Below, piece after piece: positions 17,816-36,363 of a stretch of 64,000 nucleotides of DNA. Under the pieces are notes generated by a model, which was not told the origin of the DNA, made no database searches, and was given only the letters and a program-made list of their open reading frames with translations. Source of the stretch: Oricola nitratireducens (GTDB taxonomy: Bacteria > Pseudomonadota > Alphaproteobacteria > Rhizobiales > Rhizobiaceae); NCBI RefSeq assembly GCF_014904745.1, contig NZ_JACZCS010000021.1, forward strand, positions 1-64,000, written 5' to 3'. How positions within the stretch are numbered: position 1 is the stretch's first letter; the number at the start of each line of letters is the position of its first letter. Both the position numbers and the translations under genes were made by a program.

Positions 17816-17816
17816 A

Positions 17817-21632: not shown

Positions 21633-22061
21633 CTAAAAGCGTAGCTGAAACAGACCCCGGCGTTCGTAGAGAGCTGCCGCTTCTCTGACGAACGCGGCTA
21701 GCCGATGCGCCTGGTATTCCGAAGCAAAACGCTCCGCCATGCGCTCGAGCTCTGCAGCAGATCGCGCTCGGCCCGGACGCAACAGTTCATAAATCCGCAT
21801 GATCTCGTCTTGCGGCAGGCGGGTCATCTCCGCCGCGCGCTCGAAATTCTCCGCAAGGGATGCGCGCCCGACGGAACGGGCAATCTCGGCCTGCTGCAAG
21901 AGGGCTGCGGGCGTGATCCGAAGATCTTCCATGTGCAGGTCGCCATTCGCCGCCGCCTCGAGCGTAAGGGCGTCGAGCGATTTGCCCCGCTGCCCCGTAA
22001 TGCGTTCGGGTGACTTTTCGGCCATGGGGTAGTTACGGGCGGTCAGGGGAGGATTTCGCAT
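21633..22061 (-). CDS. pduE: Propanediol dehydratase small subunit
   Basis: A 142-residue gamma subunit of B12-dependent diol dehydratase. Characteristic segments are SLDALTLEAAANGDLHMEDL followed by RITPAALLQQAEIARSVGR (about residues 28-66), NFERAAEMTRLPQDEIMRIY, and near the end AAFVREAAALYERRGLF. Its ATG overlaps the stop of the fused large/medium subunit gene (TAATG), so synthesis is coupled. The N-terminal extension is short and lacks the hydrophobic helix that acts as an encapsulation signal in some small subunits. Confidence 0.9.
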   Translation of the reverse strand: MRNPPLTARNYPMAEKSPERITGQRGKSLDALTLEAAANGDLHMEDLRITPAALLQQAEIARSVGRASLAENFERAAEMTRLPQDEIMRIYELLRPGRARSAAELERMAERFASEYQAHRLAAFVREAAALYERRGLFQLRF

Positions 22062-24340
22062 TAGCCTTGCTCCAGAAAATCGATGGTGATCTCTTCGGGA
22101 GCGGCATCTGGCTCGGTCATCGCGGTTTCGATCGCGTAGGAAAGCGCGACGCGAGCGTGGTAGCGTGCGCCCAGCGCCTCGCCCCTGGTCGGCACGACGA
22201 CAGGTTCCGGCAGGCTGCCACTTGCGTGGACCGTCGCATTGAAACCCAATGTCTCGTAATGGGCGAGCGTGGTAATTGGCGCGTTGGAGAAAAGCTCCAG
22301 ATTGTTATGCGGCAACCGGTCCTTCTGGTGAATGACAGTGGTGCCCTTAGACTGGATGCCGATTCCGACACCCGAGCCCGACAACCGCGCCGCGCTGAGC
22401 CCGAGGAAGGAGGTGTCGGCGGTATGGTGCAATCGGACGACCCGCATGCTACCGCCGCCACGCGCGATTCCGTCGCCTATGGCGCGCACGACTTCGCTGA
22501 GGCGATGTCCAGCAAGCGTGCGGAAGATTTTCGTCCCGAAGCCCGGGCTAATCCCCACGACGATTTCGCCTCGATCTGTCCCGGGTACGGCTCGCCCCAT
22601 TATCCGGTACCGTATGGCGCGGGCTTCCATCTGCTCGCTCGCCGCTTCCGTGCGAAGAACCTCGTCGCGTGTCAGCACGTCGCGGATCGCGGCCAACTCC
22701 TTGCGCCGTGCATCGTTCAAGCGGTAGCCGGTGCCTGGCCCGACATAGTCGTTGGGATCGTTGATCGCGCTGAGCACGCGCCCTTCGCGCACGATCGCCG
22801 AGGTCTGCAGGTAGTCGCCCGAGATACGCAGCTTGACGAGGAAAAGGAGGTTCCGCGCCTCCTCGACGAAGCCGCCGCGATCGAGGGACCGGATGACATC
22901 GAGCACGGTGATACCCTTCGCCTTTATCTCCTCGCTGATGAGCGCCACATCGCGGGGCTGGAAGCTCTCGGTTTCGTTCGAGCCCGAGGCGACGGCGACC
23001 GAGCGCTTCATGGCTTCGGTCGTTTCGGCCAGCCCGAGATCCTTCAGCACATGGGACAGCGCATCGATGGCACGGCGGCGGAGGTCGAGCGCGCTCGCGT
23101 CCTCGATTGAGGTCAGCCCGCCATCGGCCTCGAAGTCGCGCTGCAGGACAAGAAACTCTTCCAGTTCCTCGCCGTTGAACGAGGACGGATTGAAAGAGTT
23201 GTCGTATTTCAGGATGCTTCCGAATCCCGAACAAATGAGATCCGATCCGCCGATGAGGAACGGCAGGATCTTGGCGGCTACGCGCATATCGGACTCGGAA
23301 TGCCGCGCATCGTTGCCCGAGGCGCATTCGAGATCGAGCCAGACCGCGATCAGGTTTTCAGCCATGATCTCGCGTACGCCGCCGGGGATCGAAGCGGCCA
23401 AGGGCGCGCCGTCGATGCCGCCGTTCTGCGTGCCTTGCGACCCCATCCCACGCTGCAAGCAAAGGCAGCGGGCCTCGAGGTAAAGTAGCGACTTCGCTTC
23501 GTGAAATCCCATCAGCAGTTCCGCCGCCGCGCCGGAGGTGCAGCGCATCTTGATACCGCGCGAGGCATAGGCGGCGGTTAGCCAGGCCTTGGACCACGGC
23601 GTATCGTCTCCGTCGATGAAGGCGCTTTCCGTACCATATACGGAAACCGTCTCGGCATAGGAGGTGAAGCCTGCCATGCCGATCTCGAGTTCTTCGGCCT
23701 CCTCGCTCGAGCACTGGAACAGCGTGCCAGCGCGGCCGACTGCGGAACCCACGCAACACGCGAGCGCGTTCGACCAGGAATTGCGCGCGACGCGCATCGT
23801 GGTCTCGATCTCGTCGAAGCCGAGCGCGACCGCGATCGCGGCGTCGGCGGCCAGTTGCAAGGGATCATCCTTAGCGTTCGTAACATGCGCCTGATTGCCG
23901 GGGGTGCGGCGCGCGCGCATCTTGGAATAGGCGAAAGCGATTTCCATCGCATTCAGTTCGGCTACCGCCTCGGCGAGTTTCGCGGGTGTCAGGCCGCGTG
24001 CGAGCCGGGTGAGCTCCGTACGCGGCACGTTCACGTCGACCAGCATCCGGGCAAGCTGAGTCGATGGGATCGCCATCGCCTCTTCCGCGATCGCGGGGTC
24101 GATATGATAGGTGGCGATGAAGGCGTCGATCATGTCGAAGTCCTTCGCGGCGACACCGTCCATTGCCATAACCTTACCGCCCGAGATCTTCAGTCCCGGC
24201 TTTGGATCCGCCGCGCCCGCAAACGCCGCGAAGCCGTTTTCGGGGTCTTCGGCGGCGAACTGGTCAAGTCGCAGGGCGCGATCGTCCCAATCGTCGAACC
24301 TTCTCCAGCGATTGGCAGCGAAGTTTCGGCTTTCGCTCAT
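22061..24340 (-). CDS. pduCD: B12-dependent diol dehydratase, large and medium subunits fused
   Basis: A 759-residue protein. Residues about 1-560 match the TIM-barrel large subunit (PduC) and about 590-755 the medium subunit (PduD; GISPGFGTK, then GSGVGIGIQSKGTTVIHQKD). Residues equivalent to the Klebsiella catalytic His143 (H152 in QAHVTN), Glu170 (E179), Gln296 (in TQNGG) and Asp335 (in ASGND) are all kept. The enzyme turns 1,2-propanediol into propionaldehyde by adenosylcobalamin radical chemistry. The fusion loses the free N-terminus of PduD, which normally carries the encapsulation peptide. No reactivase (PduGH) or adenosyltransferase gene lies in the window. It follows the deoR gene by 34 bp and faces away from the shell operon. 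Confidence 0.93.
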   Translation of the reverse strand: MSESRNFAANRWRRFDDWDDRALRLDQFAAEDPENGFAAFAGAADPKPGLKISGGKVMAMDGVAAKDFDMIDAFIATYHIDPAIAEEAMAIPSTQLARMLVDVNVPRTELTRLARGLTPAKLAEAVAELNAMEIAFAYSKMRARRTPGNQAHVTNAKDDPLQLAADAAIAVALGFDEIETTMRVARNSWSNALACCVGSAVGRAGTLFQCSSEEAEELEIGMAGFTSYAETVSVYGTESAFIDGDDTPWSKAWLTAAYASRGIKMRCTSGAAAELLMGFHEAKSLLYLEARCLCLQRGMGSQGTQNGGIDGAPLAASIPGGVREIMAENLIAVWLDLECASGNDARHSESDMRVAAKILPFLIGGSDLICSGFGSILKYDNSFNPSSFNGEELEEFLVLQRDFEADGGLTSIEDASALDLRRRAIDALSHVLKDLGLAETTEAMKRSVAVASGSNETESFQPRDVALISEEIKAKGITVLDVIRSLDRGGFVEEARNLLFLVKLRISGDYLQTSAIVREGRVLSAINDPNDYVGPGTGYRLNDARRKELAAIRDVLTRDEVLRTEAASEQMEARAIRYRIMGRAVPGTDRGEIVVGISPGFGTKIFRTLAGHRLSEVVRAIGDGIARGGGSMRVVRLHHTADTSFLGLSAARLSGSGVGIGIQSKGTTVIHQKDRLPHNNLELFSNAPITTLAHYETLGFNATVHASGSLPEPVVVPTRGEALGARYHARVALSYAIETAMTEPDAAPEEITIDFLEQG

Positions 24341-24374
24341 CTTTCCAGTTCCTTCGTAGTCGCGGCACGGCGAA

Positions 24375-25133
24375 TCAGTCCCAGATTACGTCGGCCCCGC
24401 GTTGCCGGATCGCATCGAGCAGCCAGGCCGTAGGTGCTTTTTCCGAAATCAGGCTGACGGTTCTGTCCCAGCCGACGATCTGTTGAAGCGACCTGTTTCC
24501 GTATTTCGACGAGTCTGCCAGAATCAGCGTCTCGTCGGCGCAGTCGATCATCGCGGAGTAGACCTGCGCCGCATGCAGAAGCGCCTCGCTCACACCTTCT
24601 TTGTCGATCCCGGACGCGCCCATGACAGCGATCGGAGTACGAAACTGCCGGATACATTTCAGTGTCTCGGCTCCGTGAACCAATCCTTCCTTCGGCTCGA
24701 CGATGCCGGGCAGGGCCATCACCTGGATGAGCGGGTTCGTTGACAGTTCGGTGGCGATGCTGAAGGCGGGGGTAAGCACGGTCAAAGGGCGCTCGATGGA
24801 ACGCAGGGCGCGCGCGAAATGCAGCGTCGTGGCGCCGCCGCCGACGAACAGGCTTCGCGCTTCGCCGATGCGCGCGATCGCGGTCCGGGCAATCTTCTCG
24901 CGCTCCTGGATGTGCAGCTTCAGGCGTTCCGCCAAGGCCGGCTCAAACGTCTTCGTGCGCACCGCGCCCCCGTAGGTGCGCTTGATCCGGCCGGTCTCGT
25001 CCAGTTCCGTCAGGTCCCGGCGGACTGTCTCCGCTGAAACGCCGAGTCGCTCGGCGAGTTCGTTCACGCGGATCGACGGATTGATTTCAAGCACGCTGAG
25101 AATCTGATCGTGCCTTCGCGTCTTTTTCGACAT
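24375..25133 (-). CDS. DeoR-family transcriptional regulator of the microcompartment locus
   Basis: A 252-residue DeoR/GlpR-type regulator. The helix-turn-helix is at about 18-45 (VNELAERLGVSAETVRRDL) and a sugar-phosphate-isomerase-like effector domain follows, with FVGGGATTLHFA and, later, SKYGNRSLQQIVGWD. Start is ATG 25133, where the family begins. Effectors of this family are usually phosphorylated compounds; 1-amino-2-propanol phosphate, made by the kinase in this locus, is an attractive but unproven candidate. It probably binds the 16-bp palindrome in the divergent intergenic region and controls both arms. Confidence 0.87.
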   Translation of the reverse strand: MSKKTRRHDQILSVLEINPSIRVNELAERLGVSAETVRRDLTELDETGRIKRTYGGAVRTKTFEPALAERLKLHIQEREKIARTAIARIGEARSLFVGGGATTLHFARALRSIERPLTVLTPAFSIATELSTNPLIQVMALPGIVEPKEGLVHGAETLKCIRQFRTPIAVMGASGIDKEGVSEALLHAAQVYSAMIDCADETLILADSSKYGNRSLQQIVGWDRTVSLISEKAPTAWLLDAIRQRGADVIWD

Positions 25134-25201
25134 TTGGGGCCTGCCTTCTGATTCGTGCCTACCAACGATATTGGGTTTGATAAAAAATATCCAAAGAAAA
25201 A

Positions 25202-25217
25202 TGCCCGATATCGGGCA
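25202..25217. promoter_or_regulatory. Perfect palindromic operator between deoR and the shell operon
   Basis: TGCCCGATATCGGGCA is a perfect 16-bp palindrome centred between the two divergent operons. It lies 7 bp upstream of a plausible rightward -35 element TTGCAA (25225-25230). The neighbouring DeoR-type regulator is the natural ligand. Confidence 0.65.
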
Positions 25218-25224
25218 AAACATG

Positions 25225-25252
25225 TTGCAAGTCAAAAATTCGATGTTAGCAT
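25225..25252 (+). promoter_or_regulatory. Candidate promoter of the microcompartment operon
   Basis: TTGCAA and TAGCAT are separated by 16 bp, about 26 bp before the GTG start at 25278. It is a reasonable sigma-70-type promoter directly downstream of the palindrome, so a bound repressor would block it. Spacing fits but was judged by eye. Confidence 0.45.
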
Positions 25253-25277
25253 CCGGGTGACTTCACAGGGGAAGCGC

Positions 25278-26558
25278 GTGTTCAATTACGGATATTTCGC
25301 CTTTGACTCCAAGGAGGACCTGCTCCGGAAAGCGGCCGAGTTCTGGAATCCGGGCAAGGTCAATTTCTGGACGGAAGCCGGAACGCCGATGGTCATCGAC
25401 CGGCGCGAGGGCTATTTCCTTTACGACATGACGGGCAAGCGCCTGATCGACCTGCACCTGAATGGCGGGACCTACAATTTCGGACACCGTCATCCCGAAC
25501 TGGTGGAAGTGCTGAAATCCGGCCTCGACTATTTCGACATGGGCAACCACTGGTTCCCGTCCGTGGCGCGCGCCGCTTTCGCCGAGAAACTGGTCCAGAC
25601 CGCGCCGCACATGAAATACGCGATCTTCGGCGCCGGCGGCGCCGAGGCTGTCGAGATTGCGCTGAAGACCGCGCGCTACGCGACCAAGCGCAAGAAGATC
25701 GTCTCGATCATCAAGGGATATCACGGCCATTCCGGCCTGTCGGTCGCCACCGGCGACGAGCGGTTTTCCAAGATCTTCCTCTCCGACCGGCCCGACGAGT
25801 TCATCCATGTTCCCTTCAACGACGCCGATGCTCTCGAGGACGTGCTCAAGAAGGGCGATGTGGCGGCCTTCATCATCGAAACGATCCCGGCGACCTACGG
25901 CTTTCCGCTTCCCAAGGACGGCTATCTGAAGGCCTGTCAGGATTTGTGCCGCAAATACGGCACCAAGTTCATTGCCGACGAGGTGCAGACCGGTCTCATG
26001 CGCACCGGCGTGATGTGGGGCTGGCAGGGCTACGGACTCACGCCCGACATCTTCGTCTGCGGCAAGGGGCTTGGCGGCGGGATCTACCCGATCAGCGCCT
26101 GCCTCGTGAACGAGGAGTGCGGCGGCTGGCTGGTGGAAGACGGCGCGGCCCATATCAGCACCTCGGGCGGCGCCGAACTCGGCTGTCTCGTCGGCCATCA
26201 CGTGCTGGAGATGCTGCAACGGCCCGAGGTCATCTCGAACGTGCATTTCGTCGCCGAGTTCTTTGCGCAGGGCATGGCCGAAATGATGCGGCGGCACAGC
26301 GATGTCTTCGTCGGCGTCCGTCAAAGGGGCGTCGTGCTCGGGCTCGAATTCGACCATCCCGAGGGGGCGGTCGCCGTGTCGCGCGCGCTATATGAAAACG
26401 GGGTCTGGGCGATCTTCTCCTCGCTCGACAAGCGCGTGCTGCAGTTCAAACCGGGCGTCGTTCTGGACGTCGATCTCTGTCAGGAGATCCTCGACCGCTT
26501 CGACGCCGCGATGCCGCGTGCGCGGCAGCTTCTGAAATCGGGCAGGCGGGCGGCATGA
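25278..26558 (+). CDS. Class III aminotransferase-fold enzyme, probable 1-amino-2-propanol-phosphate phospholyase
   Basis: A 426-residue PLP enzyme. GTG 25278 is chosen because AGGGGAAG precedes it; GTG 25257 is an in-frame alternative. The PLP lysine is Lys263 (CGKGLGGGIYP) and the ring-nitrogen Asp234 lies in FIADEVQTG. In aminoacetone-utilisation (RMM/AAUM) loci this gene type removes phosphate and ammonia from (S)-1-amino-2-propanol O-phosphate to give propionaldehyde, rather than transaminating. The kinase, SDR and acylating aldehyde dehydrogenase in the same operon support that role. No clear encapsulation extension is seen. A role as ethanolamine-phosphate phospholyase cannot be excluded. 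Confidence 0.82.
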   Translation: MFNYGYFAFDSKEDLLRKAAEFWNPGKVNFWTEAGTPMVIDRREGYFLYDMTGKRLIDLHLNGGTYNFGHRHPELVEVLKSGLDYFDMGNHWFPSVARAAFAEKLVQTAPHMKYAIFGAGGAEAVEIALKTARYATKRKKIVSIIKGYHGHSGLSVATGDERFSKIFLSDRPDEFIHVPFNDADALEDVLKKGDVAAFIIETIPATYGFPLPKDGYLKACQDLCRKYGTKFIADEVQTGLMRTGVMWGWQGYGLTPDIFVCGKGLGGGIYPISACLVNEECGGWLVEDGAAHISTSGGAELGCLVGHHVLEMLQRPEVISNVHFVAEFFAQGMAEMMRRHSDVFVGVRQRGVVLGLEFDHPEGAVAVSRALYENGVWAIFSSLDKRVLQFKPGVVLDVDLCQEILDRFDAAMPRARQLLKSGRRAA

Positions 26559-28096
26559 ACGAACACGTGACAATGGATGCGCCGCGTCTGTCGGTCCCCG
26601 ACCGGGCTATCTCGAGTGCCCGCATGAAGGTCGAGCGCGCCGCCTGGGCCGCGCGCTACTACCGGAACTTCAGCCGCGAGGCCGTGCTGGCCATAGCCGA
26701 GGCCGTCGCGCGTGCCGGCTACGAGAAAGCGGGGCATTTCGCCGATCTCGCTGTCGCGGAAACCGGTTTCGGCGTGGTCGAGCACAAGAAGATCAAGAAT
26801 GAGCTCTGTACGCACGAGCTTCTGGACTACTACCGGGACATGGATCTGGTCACGCCCCGGATCGACAAGGAACGCAAGATCGTGGAGCTGCCAAAACCGG
26901 CAGGCGTCGTCTTTGCCTTGGCGCCCGCGACCAATCCGGTAGCCACGGTCTACTACAAGGCGATGCTGGCGATCCTGAGCCGGAATGCCATAGTCATAAG
27001 CCCGCACCCCGTGGCGAAGTCGGTTTCGGCCGCGGCCGCGCGGCTTCTGGCCGAGGCGGCTGAGGCGGCTGGCGCGCCCTCCGGCCTAATCCAGTGCGTC
27101 GAGGAGCCGTCGATCCCGCTGGTGCAGGACATCATGTCTTCCGACCGGATCAACGTCATCGTCGCGACGGGCGGCACCGCGATGGTCCGCGCCGCCTATT
27201 CCTCGGGCAATCCGGCGCTCGGCGTGGGGCCGGGCAACGCTGTCGCCTATGTCGACACCACCGCCCGCGCCGATGCCGCCGCGCGCTGCCTTGTGGAGAG
27301 CAAGAGCTTCGACAATTCGATCCTGTGCACCAATGAAAGCGTTGTCCTGACGCTGGATCAGAACCGCGGCAACATGGAGCGCGCGCTGCGTACCGCGGGG
27401 GCTCATGTCTGCAACGAGGCCGATACGGACCGGCTGCGCGACTATCTTTTTGGCGGACACGGGATCAACCTCGAAGCCATCGGAAAGAGCGCGGCCTGGA
27501 TCGCGGAACGCGCAGGCATCCGCGTCAGCCCCTCGGCCAAGATACTCGTCCCCGTCGTGGCCACGCCGGGGCAGGACGATTTTCTTTTCCGCGAAAAGCT
27601 TTGCCCGGTGCTGACGCTGACCTCGGCTGTCGATTTCCAGCAAGCGCTGACCTTCGCCAAGCACACCGCGCGGCGCGGTGCCGGTCACTCGGCGGCCTTC
27701 CACGGCGAGGACACCGCGAGGCTCGTCCGCTATTCACAGGAGATGCCGGTCTATCGCGTCGTCGTGAACGCACCCTGTTCGCAGGGCGCGGCCGGCTTCG
27801 CGACCTATCTGCCACCTTCTTTCACCATCGGTACGGGTTTCGCCGGACGTTCCTCGATCGGCGAAAATCTGGGGCCCCACCATCTCGTCCAGTGGACGCG
27901 GATCGCCTACGGTAAAGAGGTGCCGGCCGATCTGCACGAGATCGACCTGAGCACGGTCTCTTCCGACCGCTCAGCCCCGCGAGACCTTGCAGTCGCCACG
28001 CCTCCTGCCGGGCGGGAGCCTTCTGGTTTCAGTCGCGATGATCTGCGCCAGCTCATTCTCGAGGAATTGCGCAGCCTTAATGGGGCAGGGAAATGA
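26555..28096 (+). CDS. pduP: CoA-acylating propionaldehyde dehydrogenase with encapsulation tail
   Basis: A 513-residue PduP/EutE-type aldehyde dehydrogenase. Catalytic Cys258 is in SFDNSILCTNES, and the CoA-acylating subfamily segment GVGPGNAVAYVD precedes it. After the catalytic fold ends (about residue 470) comes a Pro/Ala-rich linker (APRDLAVATPPAGREPSG) and a predicted amphipathic helix, FSRDDLRQLILEELRSLN, at the extreme C-terminus. This matches the layout of C-terminal encapsulation peptides that load cargo into shells. It would convert propionaldehyde, NAD and CoA to propionyl-CoA inside the compartment. ATGA overlaps with both neighbouring genes. Confidence 0.92.
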   Translation: MNEHVTMDAPRLSVPDRAISSARMKVERAAWAARYYRNFSREAVLAIAEAVARAGYEKAGHFADLAVAETGFGVVEHKKIKNELCTHELLDYYRDMDLVTPRIDKERKIVELPKPAGVVFALAPATNPVATVYYKAMLAILSRNAIVISPHPVAKSVSAAAARLLAEAAEAAGAPSGLIQCVEEPSIPLVQDIMSSDRINVIVATGGTAMVRAAYSSGNPALGVGPGNAVAYVDTTARADAAARCLVESKSFDNSILCTNESVVLTLDQNRGNMERALRTAGAHVCNEADTDRLRDYLFGGHGINLEAIGKSAAWIAERAGIRVSPSAKILVPVVATPGQDDFLFREKLCPVLTLTSAVDFQQALTFAKHTARRGAGHSAAFHGEDTARLVRYSQEMPVYRVVVNAPCSQGAAGFATYLPPSFTIGTGFAGRSSIGENLGPHHLVQWTRIAYGKEVPADLHEIDLSTVSSDRSAPRDLAVATPPAGREPSGFSRDDLRQLILEELRSLNGAGK

Positions 28097-28704
28097 CTGA
28101 GTTGCGGGCCTCCATCTTCATTGACCAGCTTCAGCCGCAGACGCTGGCCTATATCGCCACCTGGATGCGCGGGACGCTGCCGCGGCTTCGAATGGCGGCG
28201 CAGATCGTCGAGATCGCGCCGGGCCTCGATGTCGAGGTGCTGACCGACACGGTGCTAAAAAGCGCCGATGTGCATGCCGGGCTTCTCGTGGTCGAACGCC
28301 AGTTCGGCACGCTGCAGTTCCATTCCCGCTCCACCGCAGAGGTGCAGGCAGGCGCGGCAGCGATCCTCGAAGCCCTGGGCAAGACCTCGGACGATGTCGC
28401 GCCGCCGAAGATACTCGCCTCCAAGCTCGTAACCAATGTGAGCGACCAGCACGCGTTTCTCATGAACCGCAACAAGCTCGGCTCGATGGTGCTCGGCGGC
28501 GACAGCATCTATCTGCTCGAATGCCAGTCGGCCGCCTACGCGATCCTCGCCTGCAACGAGGCAGAGAAAGAGGCGGACGTGAAACTTATCGACATGCGCA
28601 TGATCGGCGCCAACGGACGGCTCTACCTGGCCGGGACCGAGGCCGACGTGCGCAATGCAAGAAACGCGGCCGAAGGCGCGTTGCGCGATGCAGGAGCGTC
28701 TTGA
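28093..28704 (+). CDS. Microcompartment shell protein, BMC-T (first)
   Basis: A 203-residue tandem-domain shell protein. It begins TELRASIFIDQLQPQTLAYI, and the N-terminal half includes GLLVVERQFGTLQFHS. The second BMC half begins near ILASKLVTNVSDQHAFLMNR (about 108) and includes GSMVLGGDSIYLLECQSAAY, then ILACNEAEK. It should form pseudohexameric trimers in the facets, often gated pores for larger molecules such as CoA or nucleotides. It is paralogous to the second BMC-T at 29709 and overlaps the aldehyde dehydrogenase gene by four bases. Confidence 0.9.
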   Translation: MTELRASIFIDQLQPQTLAYIATWMRGTLPRLRMAAQIVEIAPGLDVEVLTDTVLKSADVHAGLLVVERQFGTLQFHSRSTAEVQAGAAAILEALGKTSDDVAPPKILASKLVTNVSDQHAFLMNRNKLGSMVLGGDSIYLLECQSAAYAILACNEAEKEADVKLIDMRMIGANGRLYLAGTEADVRNARNAAEGALRDAGAS

Positions 28705-29126
28705 TGTCGGCACTCAGGGACGAAATCCGCGCCATCCTGCGCGAGGAGATCGCTGCGCTGCGCGGAAATGCGGCGTCCCCGGCGCCGCAGGTCGAGCGGG
28801 TCCGCATTGGCTCGACCGCCGAGTTGAACCGTTTCGCGCAGGAACTCGTCCGGCGCGCTGCATCGGCCGATTTCGCGGCACGGGTAACGGGGGGCGAACT
28901 GACCTTCGAGTTGTCCGAAGCGCCGTTGATTGGCGCACCGATCGTCTCCGGCCCGGCGAGCAAGCCGCCTGGTACGATCGACAAGGCGCTCGTCACCGAA
29001 CGCGACATCGCCGGACTTGGCGATGGGGTACGCAGCCTGCGGCTCGGTCCGCGAAGCCGGTTGACGCCGCTCGCGCGCGACGAGGCCCGGCGCAGGGGCA
29101 TCAGGATCGAAAGGGCTGAGAAATGA
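28704..29126 (+). CDS. Small microcompartment-associated protein of unknown function
   Basis: A 140-residue basic protein encoded between BMC-T and BMC-P genes, overlapping both by a few bases. The N-terminus ALRDEIRAILREEIAALRG is a strong amphipathic helix followed by a short Ala/Pro linker (NAASPAPQ), the arrangement of an encapsulation peptide. The body contains RIGSTAELNRFAQELVRRAA (about 34-53) and ends with the basic segment ARDEARRRGIRIERAEK. As I recall it, a gene of this kind occupies the same slot in mycobacterial RMM loci. I recognise no enzyme motif. A cargo-scaffold or vertex-linking role is possible but unsupported. Confidence 0.75.
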   Translation: MSALRDEIRAILREEIAALRGNAASPAPQVERVRIGSTAELNRFAQELVRRAASADFAARVTGGELTFELSEAPLIGAPIVSGPASKPPGTIDKALVTERDIAGLGDGVRSLRLGPRSRLTPLARDEARRRGIRIERAEK

Positions 29127-29377
29127 TACAAGGCCGCGTCATAGGCAAGATCTGGTCGTCGCGCCGTGTCGACTCGCTACCGGCCGGAGCGCTTCTGGAA
29201 GTCGAAACCGAGGGTGGCGCCAAGCTGATCGCCTTCGACCCATTGGGCTGCAACACCGGGGAGGCGGTTCTCGTCACTCAGGGTTCGGTGGCCGCGGGAT
29301 ATTTCAAGGGCAAGACCGCGCCGGTCGACGCCCTGATCATCGGCTCAATCGACGAAGAAAATGTCAGCAAAGCATGA
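29123..29377 (+). CDS. Microcompartment vertex protein, BMC-P (EutN/CcmL)
   Basis: An 84-residue EutN/CcmL-family protein starting MIQGRVIGKIWSSRRVDSL, with KLIAFDPLGCNTGEAVLVTQ (about 32-51) and the VDALIIGSID end. These small beta-barrel proteins form pentamers that cap shell vertices. The gene overlaps the preceding unknown gene by four bases and is followed 12 bp later by the BMC-H gene. Confidence 0.95.
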   Translation: MIQGRVIGKIWSSRRVDSLPAGALLEVETEGGAKLIAFDPLGCNTGEAVLVTQGSVAAGYFKGKTAPVDALIIGSIDEENVSKA

Positions 29378-29389
29378 AGGAACAAACTC

Positions 29390-29674
29390 ATGGCTAACCA
29401 GGCAATCGGAATGATCGAAACCAAGGGCTACGTACCGGCGCTTTCCGCAGCGGATGCGATGGTCAAGGCGGCAAACGTGGAGATCGTTGCACGCAACGAA
29501 GTGGGCGGCGGGCTCGTGTCGGTCGTCGTGCGCGGCGATGTCGGCGCGGTCAAGGCTGCGACCGAAGCAGGCGCGGAGGCGGCAAGCCAAGTCGGCGAGG
29601 TGACCGCCGTTCACGTTATCCCGCGTCCGCATGCGGATCTCGGCAAGCACTTCACGGCTGCGGCCGTGAAGTGA
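29390..29674 (+). CDS. Microcompartment hexameric shell protein, BMC-H
   Basis: A 94-residue canonical single-domain BMC protein ([20 protein letters not shown], then KAANVEI and [16 protein letters not shown]). It forms the hexamers that tile shell facets. An AAGGAACAAACTC ribosome site lies before the ATG, and this is the first gene of the group not overlapping its neighbour, consistent with higher expression of the major shell component. Confidence 0.96.
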
Positions 29675-29708
29675 AACGGTACGGCGCGCACAGGGGGATG
29701 AACAGGAT

Positions 29709-30338
29709 ATGACCGAACTTCGCGTCTATCTGCCGATCGAGGATCTGCAGCCGCAGTTTGCGGCCTATCTTTCCTCGCCTCTGCGCGCGCGGGCTTACCC
29801 GCCGTTTCGAGGGCAGAACTCGCTTATCATCGAGGTCGCCCCGGCGCTCAGCATTCACCGCATCACCGATCTGGCGCTGAAGGTGGCGCCGGACATGGAA
29901 CCCGGCATTCTCTTCACCGAGCGCCAGTTCGGGCTTCTCGAACTGCATGCCGACGACATGGCCGATCTGCATTCCGCCGGACAGGCGATCCTGAAGGGAA
30001 TCGGCGCGAAGCCGGAGGACCAACTGGCTCCGAAGATTCTCTACCACGACATCATCGAGGACCTGTCGGATCAGCATGCGATCATTCTCAACCGCTCGCG
30101 CGACGGCTCGATCCTGGTGCCGGGCGTCGCGCTTCTGATCTACGAGATGACGCCCGCCCTGTTTGCCTGCGTCGCGGCCAACGAAGCGGAAAAGGCCGCG
30201 CCGAACGCCACGCTTAACGATGTCCAGATGATGGGCGCGACGGGAAGAATTTTCATGTCCGGCAAGCTCGAAGACATGAAGGCGGCCCGTGACCGTATCA
30301 CGGAGGCTCTAAAGAAAATCAAAGGCCGCTCCACCTGA
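29709..30338 (+). CDS. Microcompartment shell protein, BMC-T (second)
   Basis: A 209-residue tandem-domain shell protein paralogous to the product of 28093-28704. It shares TELR.....DLQPQ at the start, ERQFGLLELHADD, LSDQHAIILNRSRDGSI and NEAEKAAPN. The pore-facing loops differ (PFRGQNSLIIEVAPA against LRMAAQIVEIAPG), so the two trimers may carry different substrates. It ends the shell block, 57 bp before the importer genes. Confidence 0.9.
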   Translation: MTELRVYLPIEDLQPQFAAYLSSPLRARAYPPFRGQNSLIIEVAPALSIHRITDLALKVAPDMEPGILFTERQFGLLELHADDMADLHSAGQAILKGIGAKPEDQLAPKILYHDIIEDLSDQHAIILNRSRDGSILVPGVALLIYEMTPALFACVAANEAEKAAPNATLNDVQMMGATGRIFMSGKLEDMKAARDRITEALKKIKGRST

Positions 30339-30394
30339 TTGGAGTGCAAAAAGAAGGGGAGAACCCCCGAAAAAAACACAACAGGGAGAAGGAC

Positions 30395-31537
30395 ATGACC
30401 AACAAACTATCCAGAAGGCAATTTATCGGCCGGACCGCGGCACTTGCAGGTCTGGCCGCAGCCGGTCCGATCAGCCCCGCATTTGCCGGACGCACGGATC
30501 GTATGAACATCCTGTGCTGGGAAGGCTACAACTCGGACCAGGTTCTCGGCCCCTTCCGCAAGGCTCATCCCGCCGCGACGGTGCGTGCCGAAAGCGGTAC
30601 CTCCGACCCCGACATGATCAACAAGCTCCGTGCGGGGGAGACCTCAGTCTGGGATCTCATCAATGTCAACCAGCCCTGGGCACGCGACCAGCTCTACCCC
30701 GAAAAGCTCATCAAGCCGCTGAACAAGGAGCGGTTCTTGCCCTATTTTGAGAAGATGCTGCCCGATTTCTCGACCCCGCCCTATCGGCTGGCTTTCGCCG
30801 ACGACGGCAACCTGATCGGGATGCCGCAGCGTTACGGTCCGTTCAGCTTCGTCGTCAACACCGACGTTATCAGCCGCGAGATGGCCGAGGACCAGGGCTG
30901 GAACCTGTTCCTCGATCCGGCGATGAAGGACAGGTTCGGCGTGCTGACCTATGATAACTGGAACGTCATCCACATGTGCCTGACCGCGGGGCTGAATCCG
31001 TTCGCTCCGGTCGAAGGCGCTGATGTCGAGAAGTTCCGCGAGACGGCGAAGACCATCTTCGGCGGCTCCAAGCTCCTGACCGACGACCTCGTAGCGATGA
31101 ACACCGCGCTCATCAACGGCGAAATCGACGCCTACTTCACTGGCGGCACATATACCGCTTCGCCCGCCCGGTTCGACGGGGCGACGAATGTCCGCGGCAT
31201 CACGCCAAAATCAGGCCCGGTCGACGGCAAGGGCGGTTGCGTCTGGATCGAGCTGACCTCGGCCGTCAACAATCCCGACCCGAGCGATCTGGCCGAAGAA
31301 TTCCTCGAATTCGTACAGACGCCCGAGATCGCCAAGGCCGTGGCCTTCACCGAAGGCACATACAATCCGGTCGCCCAGATGGGCAATCCGGAAGTGATGG
31401 CGCAGTTCGATAAGGACGAACTCGACGCGATCCAGATGGACAGCCTGGAAGAAGAGATGGCGCGCTCGCTCGATTACAGTGTCGTGGCCTCTTATGACAC
31501 GTTGATCGACATCTACACGCAAGAACGCCGTTCTTGA
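30395..31537 (+). CDS. ABC transporter substrate-binding protein, Tat-exported (PotD-like)
   Basis: A 380-residue polyamine-type binding protein. ATG 30395 follows CAGGGAGAAGG. It has a twin-arginine signal peptide (SRRQFIGRTAALAGLAAAG) with likely cleavage after AFA, then NILCWEGYNSDQVLGPF. Tat export suggests folding or cofactor binding before secretion, unlike the Sec-type protein at 6705. It probably binds an amino alcohol or amine that feeds the microcompartment pathway. It follows the last shell gene closely and belongs to the same operon. Confidence 0.85.
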   Translation: MTNKLSRRQFIGRTAALAGLAAAGPISPAFAGRTDRMNILCWEGYNSDQVLGPFRKAHPAATVRAESGTSDPDMINKLRAGETSVWDLINVNQPWARDQLYPEKLIKPLNKERFLPYFEKMLPDFSTPPYRLAFADDGNLIGMPQRYGPFSFVVNTDVISREMAEDQGWNLFLDPAMKDRFGVLTYDNWNVIHMCLTAGLNPFAPVEGADVEKFRETAKTIFGGSKLLTDDLVAMNTALINGEIDAYFTGGTYTASPARFDGATNVRGITPKSGPVDGKGGCVWIELTSAVNNPDPSDLAEEFLEFVQTPEIAKAVAFTEGTYNPVAQMGNPEVMAQFDKDELDAIQMDSLEEEMARSLDYSVVASYDTLIDIYTQERRS

Positions 31538-31544
31538 ATCGAAA

Positions 31545-31576
31545 GGCTCCGGGGCGTGTTTCACCGCCCCGGAGCC
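31545..31576 (+). other. Intercistronic stem-loop after binding-protein gene
   Basis: GGCTCCGGGGCG pairs with CGCCCCGGAGCC around a short loop (31545-31576). There is no T-run. As at 7749, it separates a binding-protein gene from the ATPase gene and probably stabilises the upstream message. Confidence 0.55.
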
Positions 31577-31612
31577 GCCGGAACGAAAACTGGAACTCTA
31601 TAAGGTTGGCGA

Positions 31613-32686
31613 ATGGGCTCTCCGGGACTTCTGCGCCTGCGCGGCGTTGTTAAGAGATTTGGATCCTTCACCGCAGTGAGGGATATCGATCTCGACATCG
31701 TCGAGGGTGAGTTTTTCACGATCGTGGGACCGTCGGGCAGCGGCAAGTCCACGTTGATCCGCCTGCTCGTCGGGATGGACGAGGTCACTGAAGGCGAAAT
31801 CTGGCTGCGCGACAAGCGGATCGACAAGACGCCCGCCAATCTCAGGCCGACCTGCATGGTCTTTCAGTCGCTCGCGCTGTTTCCGCACATGACAGTCGGG
31901 CAGAACATCGAATTTCCGCTCAAGCTCAGGAAGGAACCGCAAGACAAGCGGCGCGCCCGCGCCGAGGAACTGCTGGACCTCCTGCGCCTGCCGCGATCCT
32001 ACTACGACAAGCGAATATCCCAATGCTCCGGCGGTGAACGGCAACGTGTCGCCCTTGCGCGCGCGCTGGCCTTCGATCCGGAGATCCTGTTCTTCGACGA
32101 ACCCTTGTCAGCGCTCGACTACCGCCTGCGCAAGACACTGGAAAAGGAATTGAAGGACCTTCACGCCCGCACTGGCAAGACCTTCGTTTACATCACCCAT
32201 TCGCTGGAAGAGGCGATGGTGATGTCCGACCGGATCGCCATCATGAAAGAGGGCAGGTTCGAACAGATCGCGGTGGCCGATGAGATCTACAGCGCCCCGG
32301 TCAGCCGCTTCGTGGCGGAATTCATGGGCGAGGTAAATCTATTCCCGCTGAGCGCCGGCGCGGATGGCAGGATCGCGAGCGACGCGCTGTCGGTCCGTCC
32401 GGGCATGCGGCTGTCGCAACTGACGCCCGGGAGCGGCGGTCTTCTGATGGTGCGGCCCGAATATGTGCGACTGGCCGGCGACGCTGACGGATTCGACTTT
32501 TCGCTGAAGGGCATTGTGCACGGCGAATACGCTCTCGGCTCGCGGATTCAATATGAGATCGAGACGGTGAACGGTATGGTCACGGTCGAAAAGTTGCGGG
32601 AAGATCGCCTGACTGCGACCGAGGGGCAGACCTTAGTACTCGGATTCAACGCCGAAAACACTCACTTCATCGGTGAGGCGGCATGA
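31613..32686 (+). CDS. ABC transporter ATP-binding protein
   Basis: A 357-residue PotA-type ATPase with Walker A GPSGSGKST at 39-47, signature CSGGERQRVALARA, Walker B ILFFDEPLSALD, switch His in YITHSLEEA and a C-terminal TOBE-like region. The signature reads CSGGE in place of LSGGQ. It overlaps the first permease gene by four bases. It powers import for the microcompartment pathway. Confidence 0.9.
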   Translation: MGSPGLLRLRGVVKRFGSFTAVRDIDLDIVEGEFFTIVGPSGSGKSTLIRLLVGMDEVTEGEIWLRDKRIDKTPANLRPTCMVFQSLALFPHMTVGQNIEFPLKLRKEPQDKRRARAEELLDLLRLPRSYYDKRISQCSGGERQRVALARALAFDPEILFFDEPLSALDYRLRKTLEKELKDLHARTGKTFVYITHSLEEAMVMSDRIAIMKEGRFEQIAVADEIYSAPVSRFVAEFMGEVNLFPLSAGADGRIASDALSVRPGMRLSQLTPGSGGLLMVRPEYVRLAGDADGFDFSLKGIVHGEYALGSRIQYEIETVNGMVTVEKLREDRLTATEGQTLVLGFNAENTHFIGEAA

Positions 32687-33537
32687 ACAGGCTCGATGGT
32701 AGGCTGGGATTCCTGTCGGCGCTGCCACTAGTGCTCGTTCTGCTGTTGTCGTTCCTGGCGCCGATGGCGGTGGTCGCGCTTTTCTCGGTGATGCCGCAAA
32801 AAGTCTTTTCGATTGCGAATATGCCTGATTTCTCCGCCTATTCGCTGTTCTTTTCGCAAGGTTACTACAAGTCGCTGCTCTGGTCGCTCGGCATGGCACT
32901 TACCGCAACGATAATACTTTTGCTGATCTGCTGGCCGCTGGCTTATGCCATGGCCAAGGTCTTCGGGCGGTTCGGCTTAGTTCTGACGGTCGCCGTGGTG
33001 ATGAGCCTTTTCGTGTCGGAAAACATCCGGCTTTTTGGCTGGGTGCTGACGCTGATGAAGGGCGGGCTGATCGAAGGGCATCTGCGTGCCTGGACCGGTC
33101 TCAGCTTCGAAAGCCCGCTCTATGACGTGCCGATCATCATATTCGGGCTGGTCTATGTCTATCTGCCCTTTATGCTTTTCCCGCTCGCGCAGGGGATCGC
33201 AATGGTGCCGGACGACACGCGGCAAGCGGCCTATGACCTCGGCGCGTCGCGCTCGCAGGTGTTGTGGCAGATTGAGGTACCGTTGGCGGCTCCGGGCATC
33301 GTGGTGGGTTCGCTCCTGACCTTCGTCCTTGCAGCCGGAGCGCTGGCAGAATCCAAGATCCTTGGGGGGCAGGCGGTGATTGCAATCGCCGACGATATTG
33401 AGACCGCATTCACCTTCGGCCAGAACTGGCCGCTTGGATCTGCTCTGTCGATGATACTTATCGTCATCATCGGGGGGCTTGCGCTCTTCGGTGTGTCGAA
33501 AGTCGATCTCGACGCGATTATGGGGAGGAAACGCTGA
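32683..33537 (+). CDS. ABC transporter permease 1 of the microcompartment operon
   Basis: A 284-residue membrane protein with about six hydrophobic segments, the first being LSALPLVLVLLLSFLAPMAV. The ATPase-docking EAA-like loop reads QAAYDLGASRSQVLWQIEVP (about 182-201). It is of the PotB/PotH type, overlaps the ATPase gene at its start, and shares a base with the start of the second permease gene. Confidence 0.88.
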   Translation: MNRLDGRLGFLSALPLVLVLLLSFLAPMAVVALFSVMPQKVFSIANMPDFSAYSLFFSQGYYKSLLWSLGMALTATIILLLICWPLAYAMAKVFGRFGLVLTVAVVMSLFVSENIRLFGWVLTLMKGGLIEGHLRAWTGLSFESPLYDVPIIIFGLVYVYLPFMLFPLAQGIAMVPDDTRQAAYDLGASRSQVLWQIEVPLAAPGIVVGSLLTFVLAAGALAESKILGGQAVIAIADDIETAFTFGQNWPLGSALSMILIVIIGGLALFGVSKVDLDAIMGRKR

Positions 33538-34349
33538 TGCCAACCAGCCGCTCGACCCGGATTGTCCTTTACGTCTATGGCGTTCTGGTGATCGCGTTCC
33601 TCTACATCCCGCTCGTGTCGGTGGGCTTCGCCTCTGTCTCGAAGGCCCGCTACCTAACTTTTCCGATCAAGCGCTACTCAACGAAATGGTATGGGGAGGC
33701 GCTTGGAAGCAGCACTGTCAGCGAATTGCTGACGACTTCCATGACAGTGGCTGTCCTGGTGACCGTCATCTCTGTCGTCGTCGCCTTCTTTGGGGCGCTG
33801 GCCTTCGCCCGCTATCATTGGCGTTTCCGCACGACGTTCCAGAAACTGATCCTCCTGCCGATCTTCTTTCCGCAGACGGTTCTCGGGCTAGCGCTTCTGA
33901 TGTGGTTCAACTCGCTGGGCATCATTCCGACCTGGAAAACCGCGGTGGTGGCGCATCTGGTCTGGATCGCGCCCATCGCCACGCTGATCGTTGCAATACG
34001 CGCCTACAGCTTCGATCCCGCGCTGGAGGAGGCCGCCCGCGACATGGGGGCGGGCACCTTCACCATTCTGCGCGAGATCACGCTGCCGCTTCTCATGCCG
34101 GGACTGGTGTCGGCGGGTCTTTTCGCCTTCCTGCTCAGCTGGGGCAATTTCCCGTTGTCGCTGTTCACCACAGGCGCGGATTCGACGCTGCCGGAGTGGC
34201 TCTACGCCAAGATGGTATCGGGTTACTCGCCGCTGGTGCCGACACTCGGCGTCATGTCGGTCGTCGGATCCTTCGTCCTGATCATCGCGGCCTTCGCGGT
34301 GGCCAGGCTTCTGCGCGCCAACAAGGAAACGAGCGCCGTCCAAGACTGA
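33537..34349 (+). CDS. ABC transporter permease 2 of the microcompartment operon
   Basis: A 270-residue membrane protein with about six hydrophobic segments, beginning at TRIVLYVYGVLVIAFLYIPL. The docking loop is EEAARDMGAGTFTILREITL (about 164-183) and LLSWGNFPLSLFTTG follows. It is of the PotC type. TGATG coupling joins it to the first permease gene. It completes a binding-protein-dependent importer for the locus. Confidence 0.88.
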   Translation: MPTSRSTRIVLYVYGVLVIAFLYIPLVSVGFASVSKARYLTFPIKRYSTKWYGEALGSSTVSELLTTSMTVAVLVTVISVVVAFFGALAFARYHWRFRTTFQKLILLPIFFPQTVLGLALLMWFNSLGIIPTWKTAVVAHLVWIAPIATLIVAIRAYSFDPALEEAARDMGAGTFTILREITLPLLMPGLVSAGLFAFLLSWGNFPLSLFTTGADSTLPEWLYAKMVSGYSPLVPTLGVMSVVGSFVLIIAAFAVARLLRANKETSAVQD

Positions 34350-34379
34350 AACAGAGCAAACCGTTGGGAGGACATAAGC

Positions 34380-35150
34380 ATGCTCACGTCATTGCAAGGA
34401 AAAAGCGTCATCGTCACAGGCGGCTCCAAGGGCATCGGCCGCGGCATAGCCACGGTCTTCGCGCGCCAGGGGGCCAAGGTCACGATCGCGGCACGCCACG
34501 AAGACGAACTGAAGAAAGCCGCTGAAGAAATCGAGGGCGAGGTCCGCTACGAGATCTGTGATGTCTCTGACTGGGATTCGGTCAGAGAGATGGCGGACAG
34601 CGTCGCTGCGGCGCAAGGAGGGCTTTATGTGATGTGCGCCAATGCCGGCGCCTTTCCGCAAACCAAGATCGTCGACATGGATCCGGCCGAATGGGACCGC
34701 GTGATGGCAACGAATCTCCGCTCGGCCTTTCTTTGCGTAAAAGCGGCGATTCCGCATTTCGAGAAAGCCGGCAAGGGCCGCGTCGTGCTGACCTCGTCGA
34801 TCACCGGGCCGATCACCGGCTTTCCCGGCTGGTCGCATTACGGTGCATCGAAGGCCGGCCAGCTCGGTTTCCTCAAGACGGCGGCGATGGAGCTTGCGCG
34901 CTACAAGACGACGATCAACGCCGTGATGCCGGGCAACATTTACACCGAAGGGCTTCAGGATCTCGGGCAGGACTACCTCGACACGATGGCCGCCTCGATC
35001 CCCCTCAAGCGGCTGGGTGACGTGGAAGACATCGGCAATGCGGCGCTGTTCTTCGCCTCCGACGAGGCGGGCTATATCACCGGCCAGCAGATCGTGGTCG
35101 ACGGCGGTCAGATCATTCCCGAATCCCTGGAAGCCATCGCCGAAATCTGA
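34380..35150 (+). CDS. Short-chain dehydrogenase, probable 1-amino-2-propanol dehydrogenase
   Basis: A 256-residue classical SDR. The NAD(P) loop is TGGSKGIG at 13-20, the NAG motif is CANAG, and the catalytic Ser, Tyr154 and Lys158 lie in SSIT..YGASK. A GGGAGGACAT ribosome site precedes ATG 34380. In aminoacetone-utilisation loci an SDR interconverts aminoacetone and (S)-1-amino-2-propanol. Its place directly before the kinase gene fits that order of reactions. The substrate cannot be read from sequence alone. Confidence 0.8.
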   Translation: MLTSLQGKSVIVTGGSKGIGRGIATVFARQGAKVTIAARHEDELKKAAEEIEGEVRYEICDVSDWDSVREMADSVAAAQGGLYVMCANAGAFPQTKIVDMDPAEWDRVMATNLRSAFLCVKAAIPHFEKAGKGRVVLTSSITGPITGFPGWSHYGASKAGQLGFLKTAAMELARYKTTINAVMPGNIYTEGLQDLGQDYLDTMAASIPLKRLGDVEDIGNAALFFASDEAGYITGQQIVVDGGQIIPESLEAIAEI

Positions 35151-35168
35151 CCGTAGAAGGAGGACGCA

Positions 35169-36182
35169 ATGTCAGGTTCCGACATGCCGTTGGAAGAAAT
35201 GCTGCGCCATCTGGACCGGCTGGCCCAGTCCTCGCTGTCGCTTTGGGACATGCCGGAGGGGGCGAAGGCGCGGCTCATCAACGTTTCCGAGAACGCGACC
35301 TATCTCGTCGAGGCTCCTGGCGGCTACAAGTCGGTGCTGCGTATCCACAGGGAGAATTACCACACCCACCGGTCTATCGAATGCGAACTTGCCTGGCTCG
35401 AGGCGCTGGACAGCGCGGGTGTGGTGACGACGCCCGGCGTCCATATGGGGCGCAATGGCGACCCTATCCAGGAAGGGCATATCGACGGACTTCCTGCGCC
35501 GCGCTTCATGGTTCTCTTCCATTTCGTCGAGGGAGAGGCACCCGACGAGACGGGCGACTTGACTGCGGGCTACGAAGAACTCGGCGCGATCGCCGCGCGC
35601 TGCCATGACCACGTGATCAGTTGGCAGAAACCCGACGATTTCCGGCGCCTGACCTGGGATGAGGAAGCCGTCTTCGGTCGCAAGGCGACTTGGGGTGACT
35701 GGCGCGACGCGCCCGAAGTCACGCCGGATGTCGCCAGGGTGCTGGAAGAGGTGGAACGGACGGTGCGCGCCCGGCTCGATGGCTTCGGCAAGGCACCCGA
35801 CCGCTTCAACCTGATCCATGCGGACATGCGGCTTGCGAACCTGCTCATCGACGATACGGGCACCCGGCTCATCGATTTCGACGATTGTGGCTGGGGCTGG
35901 TTCCTCTACGACTTCGCCGCCTCGATCAGCTTCATCGAGGACGACCCGCGCATCCCCGAGCTCAAGGCCGCCTGGGTCCGCGGATATCGCTCGGTCCGGA
36001 CCTTGGGCGTGGTGGAGGAAGCCGAGATCGACACCTTCGTCATGATGCGGCGGATGGCCCTCCTGGCTTGGATCGGCAGCCATATCGAAGCGCCCGAACC
36101 TCAGGCGCTGGCCCCCGGTTTTGCAGCTACCACCGCGCGGCTCGGGCAGGACTACCTGGAAAGGATGGGTGTACCGGCCTGA
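35169..36182 (+). CDS. Aminoglycoside-phosphotransferase-like kinase, probable (S)-1-amino-2-propanol kinase
   Basis: A 337-residue APH-fold kinase. The catalytic loop is HADMRLANLL (His217, Asp219, Asn224) and the metal-binding Asp236 lies in IDFDDCGWG. The N-lobe has ENATYLVEAPGGYKSVLRIH. An AAGGAGGACGC ribosome site precedes the ATG. This kinase type in RMM/AAUM loci phosphorylates (S)-1-amino-2-propanol, giving the phospholyase its substrate. An antibiotic-resistance role is unlikely given the context. Confidence 0.82.
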   Translation: MSGSDMPLEEMLRHLDRLAQSSLSLWDMPEGAKARLINVSENATYLVEAPGGYKSVLRIHRENYHTHRSIECELAWLEALDSAGVVTTPGVHMGRNGDPIQEGHIDGLPAPRFMVLFHFVEGEAPDETGDLTAGYEELGAIAARCHDHVISWQKPDDFRRLTWDEEAVFGRKATWGDWRDAPEVTPDVARVLEEVERTVRARLDGFGKAPDRFNLIHADMRLANLLIDDTGTRLIDFDDCGWGWFLYDFAASISFIEDDPRIPELKAAWVRGYRSVRTLGVVEEAEIDTFVMMRRMALLAWIGSHIEAPEPQALAPGFAATTARLGQDYLERMGVPA

Positions 36183-36198
36183 AAGGGGAAACCGGAAT

Positions 36199-36363
36199 AT
36201 GCAGAACTGGAAGAAGGCGTTTCGCAGTTTTTACTACGAGACGGCCGAGGACCCCGAGGACATCGCGCTGGTCCGCGAGCGCACCGCGGTTCTCGTCATC
36301 GATATCCAGAATACCTATCTTGTGTTCCCCGTCAGCGCCTATGGCCCAGATTTGAGGTTGTGA
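36199..36363 (+). pseudogene. Isochorismatase-family hydrolase, truncated by IS insertion
   Basis: The frame opens with MQNWKKAFRSFYYETAEDPE and continues through TAVLVIDIQNTYLVFP, the first strand and catalytic Asp region of isochorismatase-like amidohydrolases. Similarity stops after SAYGPD, and four codons later the frame ends in TGA within the insertion-element end. The rest of the gene is not found on the other side of the element. The AAAGGGGAAACC ribosome site and position 16 bp after the kinase gene show it was the last gene of the microcompartment operon. Confidence 0.8.

Follow-up and report, generated by a model that had tools for sequence, protein, structure and literature searches.

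The subject of this work is a bacterial microcompartment (BMC) locus within a stretch of 64,000 nucleotides from Oricola nitratireducens (contig NZ_JACZCS010000021.1, positions 1 to 64,000; hereafter the window), in which an operon encoding a shell and enzymes presumed to act on amino alcohols faces the genes of a B12-dependent diol dehydratase. A preliminary description of this DNA had listed a short-chain dehydrogenase/reductase (SDR), an APH-like kinase, a pyridoxal phosphate (PLP) phospholyase (here called the class-III PLP enzyme), a CoA-acylating aldehyde dehydrogenase (AldDH), two BMC-T proteins, a BMC-P and a BMC-H protein. It had related them to RMM/AAUM loci, with the dehydratase operon running leftward under the same regulator, here a divergently read DeoR gene. 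All these genes were found, with matches in Pfam, NCBIfam and the PDB far beyond chance, and the family matches agree with the proposed type of locus. On balance, we regard it as probable that this is an RMM2-type locus for amino alcohols, composed of three modules that can be separated, i.e., a pathway core, a shell cassette, and a dehydratase that is tied to the core. The features are as follows; E-values refer to profile-family matches (Pfam, NCBIfam) or to comparison of the window proteins with the PDB.

21633..22061, minus strand: diol dehydratase small (gamma) subunit (PF02287, 2.8e-43); no N-terminal encapsulation peptide seen across the compared loci
22061..24340, minus strand: diol dehydratase large and medium (alpha-beta) subunits fused in a single frame, 759 aa (PF02286, 3.6e-208; PF02288, 1.1e-19)
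24375..25133, minus strand: DeoR-family regulator (PF00455, PF08220)
25134..25277, no strand: promoter region between the divergent operons, containing a partly conserved motif (36 intergenic regions aligned, from loci that have the dehydratase and loci that lack it)
25278..26558, plus strand: class-III PLP enzyme, presumed amino-alcohol-phosphate phospholyase (PF00202, 4.8e-71)
26555..28096, plus strand: AldDH with a C-terminal helix like an encapsulation peptide, a tail common to relatives as judged by eye (PF00171, NCBIfam)
28093..28704, plus strand: BMC-T (CcmP-like) shell protein (PF00936, 1.9e-8; NF053796, 1.3e-55, below the cut-off of the model)
28704..29126, plus strand: EPX, 140 aa, RMM-associated, with an N-terminal helix like an encapsulation peptide (no Pfam family)
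29123..29377, plus strand: BMC-P vertex protein (PF03319, 1.3e-19)
29390..29674, plus strand: BMC-H shell protein (PF00936, 7.7e-27; 5l38, RMM shell protein MSM0272, 4.7e-37)
29709..30338, plus strand: second BMC-T (CcmP-like) shell protein (best PDB match 5suh, MSM0271, 6.2e-80; 5l39, RMM MSM0275, 5.5e-41)
30344..31537, plus strand: ABC substrate-binding protein, weakly PotD-like (family matches)
31613..32686, plus strand: ABC ATPase (PF00005, 5.2e-31)
32683..33537, plus strand: ABC permease, PotB-like (family matches)
33537..34349, plus strand: ABC permease, PotC-like (family matches)
34380..35150, plus strand: SDR, presumed 1-amino-2-propanol dehydrogenase (PF13561, 7.3e-60; best PDB match 6ci8, 5.8e-91)
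35169..36182, plus strand: APH-like kinase, presumed (S)-1-amino-2-propanol kinase (PF01636, 2e-27; best PDB match 6ef6, 3.5e-79)

The four genes of a polyamine-type ABC transporter (30344-34349) inside the rightward operon were absent from the preliminary description, as was the 140-residue gene at 28704-29126, for whose product the label EPX was coined in this analysis. The start of the DeoR gene was set from the sequence at the ATG at 25133 instead of the listed TTG at 25235, and the GTG at 25278 chosen for the PLP enzyme agrees with aligned relatives; the listed GTG at 25155 falls inside the promoter region. For the BMC-H protein, 5l38 ranks second, behind 6ner, a BMC-H tandem fusion construct, and the second BMC-T protein has no Pfam match and scores 6.6e-52 with the NCBIfam CcmP model, below the cut-off of the model. 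The matches of the shell proteins to those of the Mycobacterium smegmatis RMM support the RMM2-type reading, and the structures closest to the kinase and the SDR, 6ef6 and 6ci8, are presumably AAUM enzymes. The nearest solved relatives of the PLP enzyme are aminotransferases, with an ethanolamine-phosphate phospho-lyase (6tor, 1.6e-29) low in the list; its presumed phospholyase activity is read from gene context, and sequence similarity does not decide it. Outside the locus no BMC genes were detected across the genome (4.93 Mb, 66 contigs) with PF00936, a model that misses the second BMC-T.

In the scheme that we propose, the core, formed by the transporter, the SDR, the APH-like kinase and the PLP enzyme, would turn an amino alcohol, for which homology suggests (S)-1-amino-2-propanol, via its phosphate to an aldehyde. 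The cassette, i.e., the AldDH, the four shell proteins and EPX, would hold this aldehyde and make the acyl-CoA, and the dehydratase, a fused B12-dependent eliminase, would turn the matching vicinal diol into an aldehyde of the same pathway. Amino-alcohol degradation is predicted for this locus, as its membership in RMM2 would imply.

A scan with the PLP enzyme supplied the best 80 of 221 loci, i.e., best matches and not a random sample, and some of them duplicate genomes of the order sample introduced below (L064/L119, L062/L125). Of the 75 shell loci that have a PLP gene, some of which end at contig edges, 72 carry the genes for AldDH, BMC-T, EPX (where present), BMC-P, BMC-H and BMC-T in this order, beginning immediately 3' of that gene. 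In 21 loci that have no cassette genes, some of them on short contigs, the kinase gene comes directly after the PLP gene in 16, with at most 172 bp between match ends; it is found elsewhere in L081 and L083, and no kinase was seen in the other three. L131, which has the shell, and L113, which has none, are collinear save for the cassette and a DeoR gene in L131, and the mycobacterial loci L089 and L099 are also collinear save for the cassette; all four have the dehydratase. The shell and the AldDH are one cassette that adjoins the PLP enzyme and is absent from otherwise collinear alphaproteobacterial and mycobacterial loci. The dehydratase occurs in loci with and without a shell, and since it is kept in collinear loci that are shell-less, it seems tied to the amino-alcohol pathway more than to the shell; the proposal of the preliminary description of a shell fed by two chemistries is not supported in so far as the shell would be what ties the dehydratase in.

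The distribution of the shell was also followed on a tree built from 52 dehydratases, of which 49 are fused and three are outgroups of the propanediol utilization (PDU) type; it was obtained with a quick method, and the long branch of L118 was flagged. The shell label changes nine times on this tree, each change being either a gain or a loss, and at least seven of these changes are forced by starred branches. Of the 30 shell labels, six (L132, L137, L139, L141, L144 and L146) refer to a shell that lies on a different contig of the genome, and of the 17 shell-less rows, nine were checked genome-wide with PF00936 (L064 through G322) and eight in the retrieved neighbourhood only; L084 and L112 stand in the tree with no shell label. 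Five of the 54 fused loci are outside the tree, i.e., L062 and L090 (both partial), L125, L119 (a duplicate of L064) and L034 (on a short contig); L125 is from the same organism as L062, so this organism is absent.

In 397 genomes of the order, which we take to be the Hyphomicrobiales, BMC genes were found in 43, the dehydratase large subunit in 32 and the PLP enzyme in 22. By tblastn of the retrieved loci, 21 of the 43 BMC genomes are of the RMM type and five of the PDU type; G036, G037, G098, G133 and G163 were counted as other BMC types by gene spacing alone. The fused dehydratase is present in 18/22 genomes with the PLP enzyme versus 9/375 without it, and in 18/21 RMM-shell genomes, so its coupling with the pathway is real. 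In 11 of these 18 RMM-type genomes, it lies within 20 kb of the shell on the same contig, and some of the other seven are on short contigs. Nine genomes of the order have the fused dehydratase with no PF00936 match, and in five of these a kinase and an SDR stand beside it. A class-wide sample of 367 genomes, the window's included, yielded the PLP enzyme in eight, the dehydratase in nine and both in seven; that is, the dehydratase is in 7/8 genomes with the PLP enzyme and in 2/359 without it, one of these two being a 43-residue fragment. Five of the six other genomes with both have them on the same contig, about 5-10 kb apart, with shell genes in each; the sixth, G558, has a partial dehydratase match on a different contig. 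In G571, the PLP enzyme and a shell were found and the dehydratase was not.

Several results weigh against a dehydratase tied to the core. Genome-wide, shell and dehydratase go together strongly (18/21 RMM-shell genomes of the order versus 9/376 others), and on the tree the shell label shows stronger clustering than almost all of 500 shuffled versions. Four of the nine BMC-free genomes have no kinase and SDR near the dehydratase; in G004 only a hydrolase and a transporter are near it, and in G336, G077 and G256 no core gene is. The PLP enzyme, kinase and SDR show no shell-specific extension (12 shell versus 14 shell-less loci, selected for this comparison), and the relatedness of the genomes, which are phylogenetically non-independent, inflates all of the co-occurrence counts. 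Nevertheless, no strong link between shell and dehydratase appears among gene neighbourhoods. In 56 of these (55 loci and the window, with flanks of at least 6 kb on the left and 5 kb on the right, out of 81 with a PLP gene), 18 have shell and dehydratase, 29 the shell alone, six the dehydratase alone and three neither, so that the dehydratase is near 18/47 shell and 6/9 shell-less neighbourhoods. Within the 22 genomes with the PLP enzyme, the dehydratase is in 16/18 with a shell and 2/4 without, a difference that is non-significant (Fisher P 0.14).

The strong genome-wide association is what would be expected of a compartment with two substrates, in which the dehydratase is encapsulated by means other than a classical peptide, e.g., via EPX or the AldDH, and feeds a luminal AldDH together with the PLP enzyme. 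This alternative, named in the portion of Axen et al. (PMC4207490) that treats these loci, also gains from the promoter region between the operons, which DeoR makes common to both in the window and in six of its close relatives. No helix-like extension was seen by eye, with predicted starts, before the conserved core of either dehydratase subunit in shell or shell-less loci. In the five PDU loci of the same order that served as positive controls, by contrast, the peptides of PduD and PduE are clear in 5/5. Among the pathway proteins, peptide-like helices are found only on the AldDH and EPX, whose N-terminal helix resembles the AldDH tail, both resembling encapsulation peptides by eye. Because the presumed cargo, i.e., the PLP enzyme and kinase as well as the SDR, is equally peptide-free, the missing peptide alone cannot place the dehydratase outside the shell, and its value as strong evidence against encapsulation is weakened. 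Considering also the dehydratase of shell-less collinear loci and the 29 of 47 shell neighbourhoods with no dehydratase nearby, we think a dual-substrate compartment unlikely, and it is probable that the dehydratase is not a cargo protein of the type found in PDU shells. As for EPX, it was detected in 62 of the 75 shell loci with a PLP gene. In nine mycobacterial loci, the chosen start missed the helix region. The C-terminal segment of EPX bears a weak resemblance to the N-terminal parts of EutT and EutQ (hhalign probabilities of 18% and 30%, with single-sequence templates); Foldseek gave no match at E<=0.001 for its predicted fold (pLDDT 84.8, pTM 0.40) and a PDB profile search nothing useful.

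Regarding regulation, the DeoR gene does lie divergently between the two operons, as expected of the shared regulator of the preliminary description; nevertheless, this gene is kept in loci that have no dehydratase. The partly conserved intergenic motif is likewise present with and without the dehydratase, which assigns the divergent control region to the core. The palindrome TGCCCGATATCGGGCA at 25202-25217 was considered as an operator and discarded, as it is not conserved as a perfect palindrome and only a weaker motif is kept in the 36 intergenic regions. No riboswitch was matched in Rfam at the gathering score between 14000 and 42000. Among the retrieved loci, the dehydratase is directly behind DeoR in the window and in six close relatives (L034-L037, L039 and L040). 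In many other alphaproteobacterial loci it is elsewhere in the cluster, often adjoining an isochorismatase-like hydrolase, of which none is in the window neighbourhood (best genome match 34%, on other contigs). A dehydratase that is merely an unrelated hitch-hiker could be argued from the independence of DeoR and its motif, and from L033, a close relative in which no dehydratase was found within the flank; this seems very improbable, since the association recurs in the order sample, the class sample and the actinobacterial loci.

The dehydratase itself departs from its PDU homologues. The alpha and beta subunits are fused in 54/54 loci, with a linker of 51-55 residues in all the 37 that are readable, and no peptide was seen in this linker. 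The metal and catalytic positions, which we take to be Q141, H143, E170, E221, Q296, D335 and S362, are intact wherever readable in the residue table and the PDB alignment. The positions of E170, E221 and D335 also appear in the parts of PMC7674605 on the active site. Two pocket residues are changed: in the window fusion, Ser301 is replaced by Asp310 and Gln336 by Ala345 (window protein numbering). The Ser301 position is Asp in 53/54 loci, L118 being the one with Ser. The same holds for 5/6 additional readable loci, in which L183 is the one with Ser, and for the two plasmid copies described below; Gln336 is replaced by Ala, Asn, Thr or Cys in 54/54, and the PDU controls have Ser301 and Gln336 in 5/5. 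The preliminary description had both branches yield propionaldehyde. This meeting point is unproven, because both residues through which the third carbon of the substrate is sensed have been replaced.

It is conceivable, and would be compatible with three modules, that the dehydratase acts on a substrate other than 1,2-propanediol, e.g., an amino-diol or glycerol, and that the branches do not meet at propionaldehyde; we give this idea appreciable weight while leaning against it. The two changed positions are those described as distinguishing glycerol conformations (PMC7674605, which prints Gln 335 for 336, in its passages on the pocket), the transporter is of the polyamine type, and the isochorismatase-like hydrolase is a frequent partner in relatives. 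On the other hand, the same passages report that enzymes with alanine at these positions are inactivated more slowly and are less active but still work, and Asp301 could simply bind a hydroxyl.

The reactivase is another point of difference. PF08841 was found above cut-off in 0/27 genomes with the fused dehydratase and in 5/5 PDU genomes; matches below cut-off, of 16-18 bits, occur in three fused-type genomes including the window's own. Both reactivase subunits are encoded in the 4/4 PDU loci examined and neither in 37 other loci, duplicates included. A large reactivase subunit adjoins the fused dehydratase in 17/17 actinobacterial loci (at 3934-5703 in L099), with no PduH match nearby at E<=1e-3. 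A large subunit with no PduH fits a fused enzyme, whose medium subunit is non-exchangeable. Substitutes were considered and rejected: EutA matches the window's genome only below cut-off (20 bits), and the medium-subunit/DdrB-like domain is found in this genome only in the fusion itself. A cobalamin adenosyltransferase is encoded in the genome.

Other fused enzymes were observed at a greater distance. L118 and L183 have dehydratases that are 46-47% identical, with Ser301 kept and Gln336 lost, and no kinase or PLP enzyme was found in the retrieved flank. In L120 and L121, which are shell-less, a Shinella-type class-III enzyme (54-58% identical) and not the RMM-type one is beside the dehydratase. 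On plasmids of Shinella and Agrobacterium (L172, L173), a fused dehydratase with Asp301 lies inside a sugar-ABC operon. The SDR and the class-III enzyme encoded there are distant (about 28-31% identical), and the APH protein has no match to the window kinase at E<=1e-5. With enzymes this distant and the kinase unmatched, L172 and L173 speak for no more than a loose link to the core. The Phyllobacterium plasmid match H1 has by annotation a phosphonate-type neighbourhood, not that of an RMM.

Taken together, the evidence shifts the interpretation away from a shell with two substrates and towards a pathway with two substrates whose shell is optional, and it calls into question the assumed substrate. 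As a tentative extension, which we rate below an even chance, the dehydratase may be a B12 eliminase of its own kind, reactivase-free in alphaproteobacteria because its fusion and remade pocket (Asp301, no Gln336) resist suicide inactivation or fit a cationic amino-diol substrate. It would serve a single amino-alcohol/diol pathway in which the six-gene compartment cassette is a plug-in that has been repeatedly gained and lost.

The surroundings of the locus include other catabolic genes. The genes at 12138-18515, i.e., a P450, two glutamine-synthetase-like genes, a PuuC-type aldehyde dehydrogenase and a glutamine amidotransferase, resemble an operon for gamma-glutamyl amine degradation, and an amino alcohol might be its product. 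Its role as the amino-alcohol supplier is kept as a side observation, as the other retrieved loci have no such operon and only scattered weak single-gene matches. A sigma-54 factor gene (10691-11998) adjoins an ABC transporter and the amine operon. At 141-3671, consecutive genes for an aldehyde dehydrogenase, a butyrate kinase and a phosphotransacylase could convert acyl-CoA to the acid and ATP, a step that is missing from the RMM operon. Directly after the kinase there are IS3-type transposase genes (36408-37771), followed by a partial dimethylformamidase-like gene with the C-terminal part of the domain only (37900-38616) and a near-full copy of this domain (38623-40296).

Whether RMM2 compartments use their dehydratase has been a question since 2014, which the collinear loci with and without the cassette make directly testable. 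The same pairs bear on the wider issue of what a pathway gains from a compartment; if the tentative extension above is correct, nature offers matched versions of one catabolic pathway with and without a shell. In addition, a reactivase-free and naturally fused dehydratase would be of interest to makers of 1,3-propanediol or 3-hydroxypropionate, for whom the inactivation of the known enzymes is, as the portion of PMC7674605 on production states, a critical drawback.

The locus is of the known RMM2 type, and the idea of a dual chemistry is old. In the sections of Axen et al. 2014 (PMC4207490) on these loci, RMM2 was split from RMM1 by additional diol dehydratase genes on the opposite strand, and the compartment was viewed as not using the dehydratase, a bifunctional compartment being the alternative. 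The gene combination is thus already described. As to function, on which the preliminary description had voiced a doubt for alphaproteobacteria, a literature search, mostly of titles and abstract openings, retrieved no functional work on the dehydratase of an RMM locus. The catalogue of 68 types by Sutter et al. 2021 (PMC8217296) includes RMM2 and, in its remarks on this type, mentions two phylum outliers; we do not present alphaproteobacterial RMM2 as previously unreported.

As described in PMC4207490, RMM2 shares with the window the RMM shell set of BMC-H, BMC-P and BMC-T with an AldDH, the phosphotransferase kinase, SDR and class-III aminotransferase-like enzyme in the shell operon, and the diol dehydratase genes on the opposite strand. 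It has a GntR regulator and an amino acid permease where the window has DeoR and an ABC transporter. Both of these genes are ancillary in that description, the stated discriminator from RMM1 being the dehydratase, and an amino acid permease replaces the ABC transporter in relatives such as L064, L065, L070, L113, L117, L119, L120 and L131. The window further differs in being alphaproteobacterial and in a genome with no reactivase above cut-off. The shell proteins of the AAUM of M. smegmatis are among the best solved relatives of those of the window, and the organism, regulator and transporter are different; RMM/Aaum is mentioned in PMC8007038, whose reference list holds entries of Mallette & Kimber 2018. 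PMC7674605, citing Liu et al. 2010, notes that Mesorhizobium loti and M. smegmatis have glycerol dehydratases with a natural alpha-beta fusion, a feature that the window enzyme has in common with them. Its lines on these fusions do not speak of a kinase/PLP link, pocket residues or a missing reactivase; elsewhere it reports slower inactivation in lysate for one alpha-beta fusion variant. PduCDE of the PDU system, in contrast, has separate C and D subunits, peptides on D and E, Ser301 and Gln336, and the reactivase G and H, all of which are absent from the window; its family and the catalytic residues of its large subunit are those of the window dehydratase.

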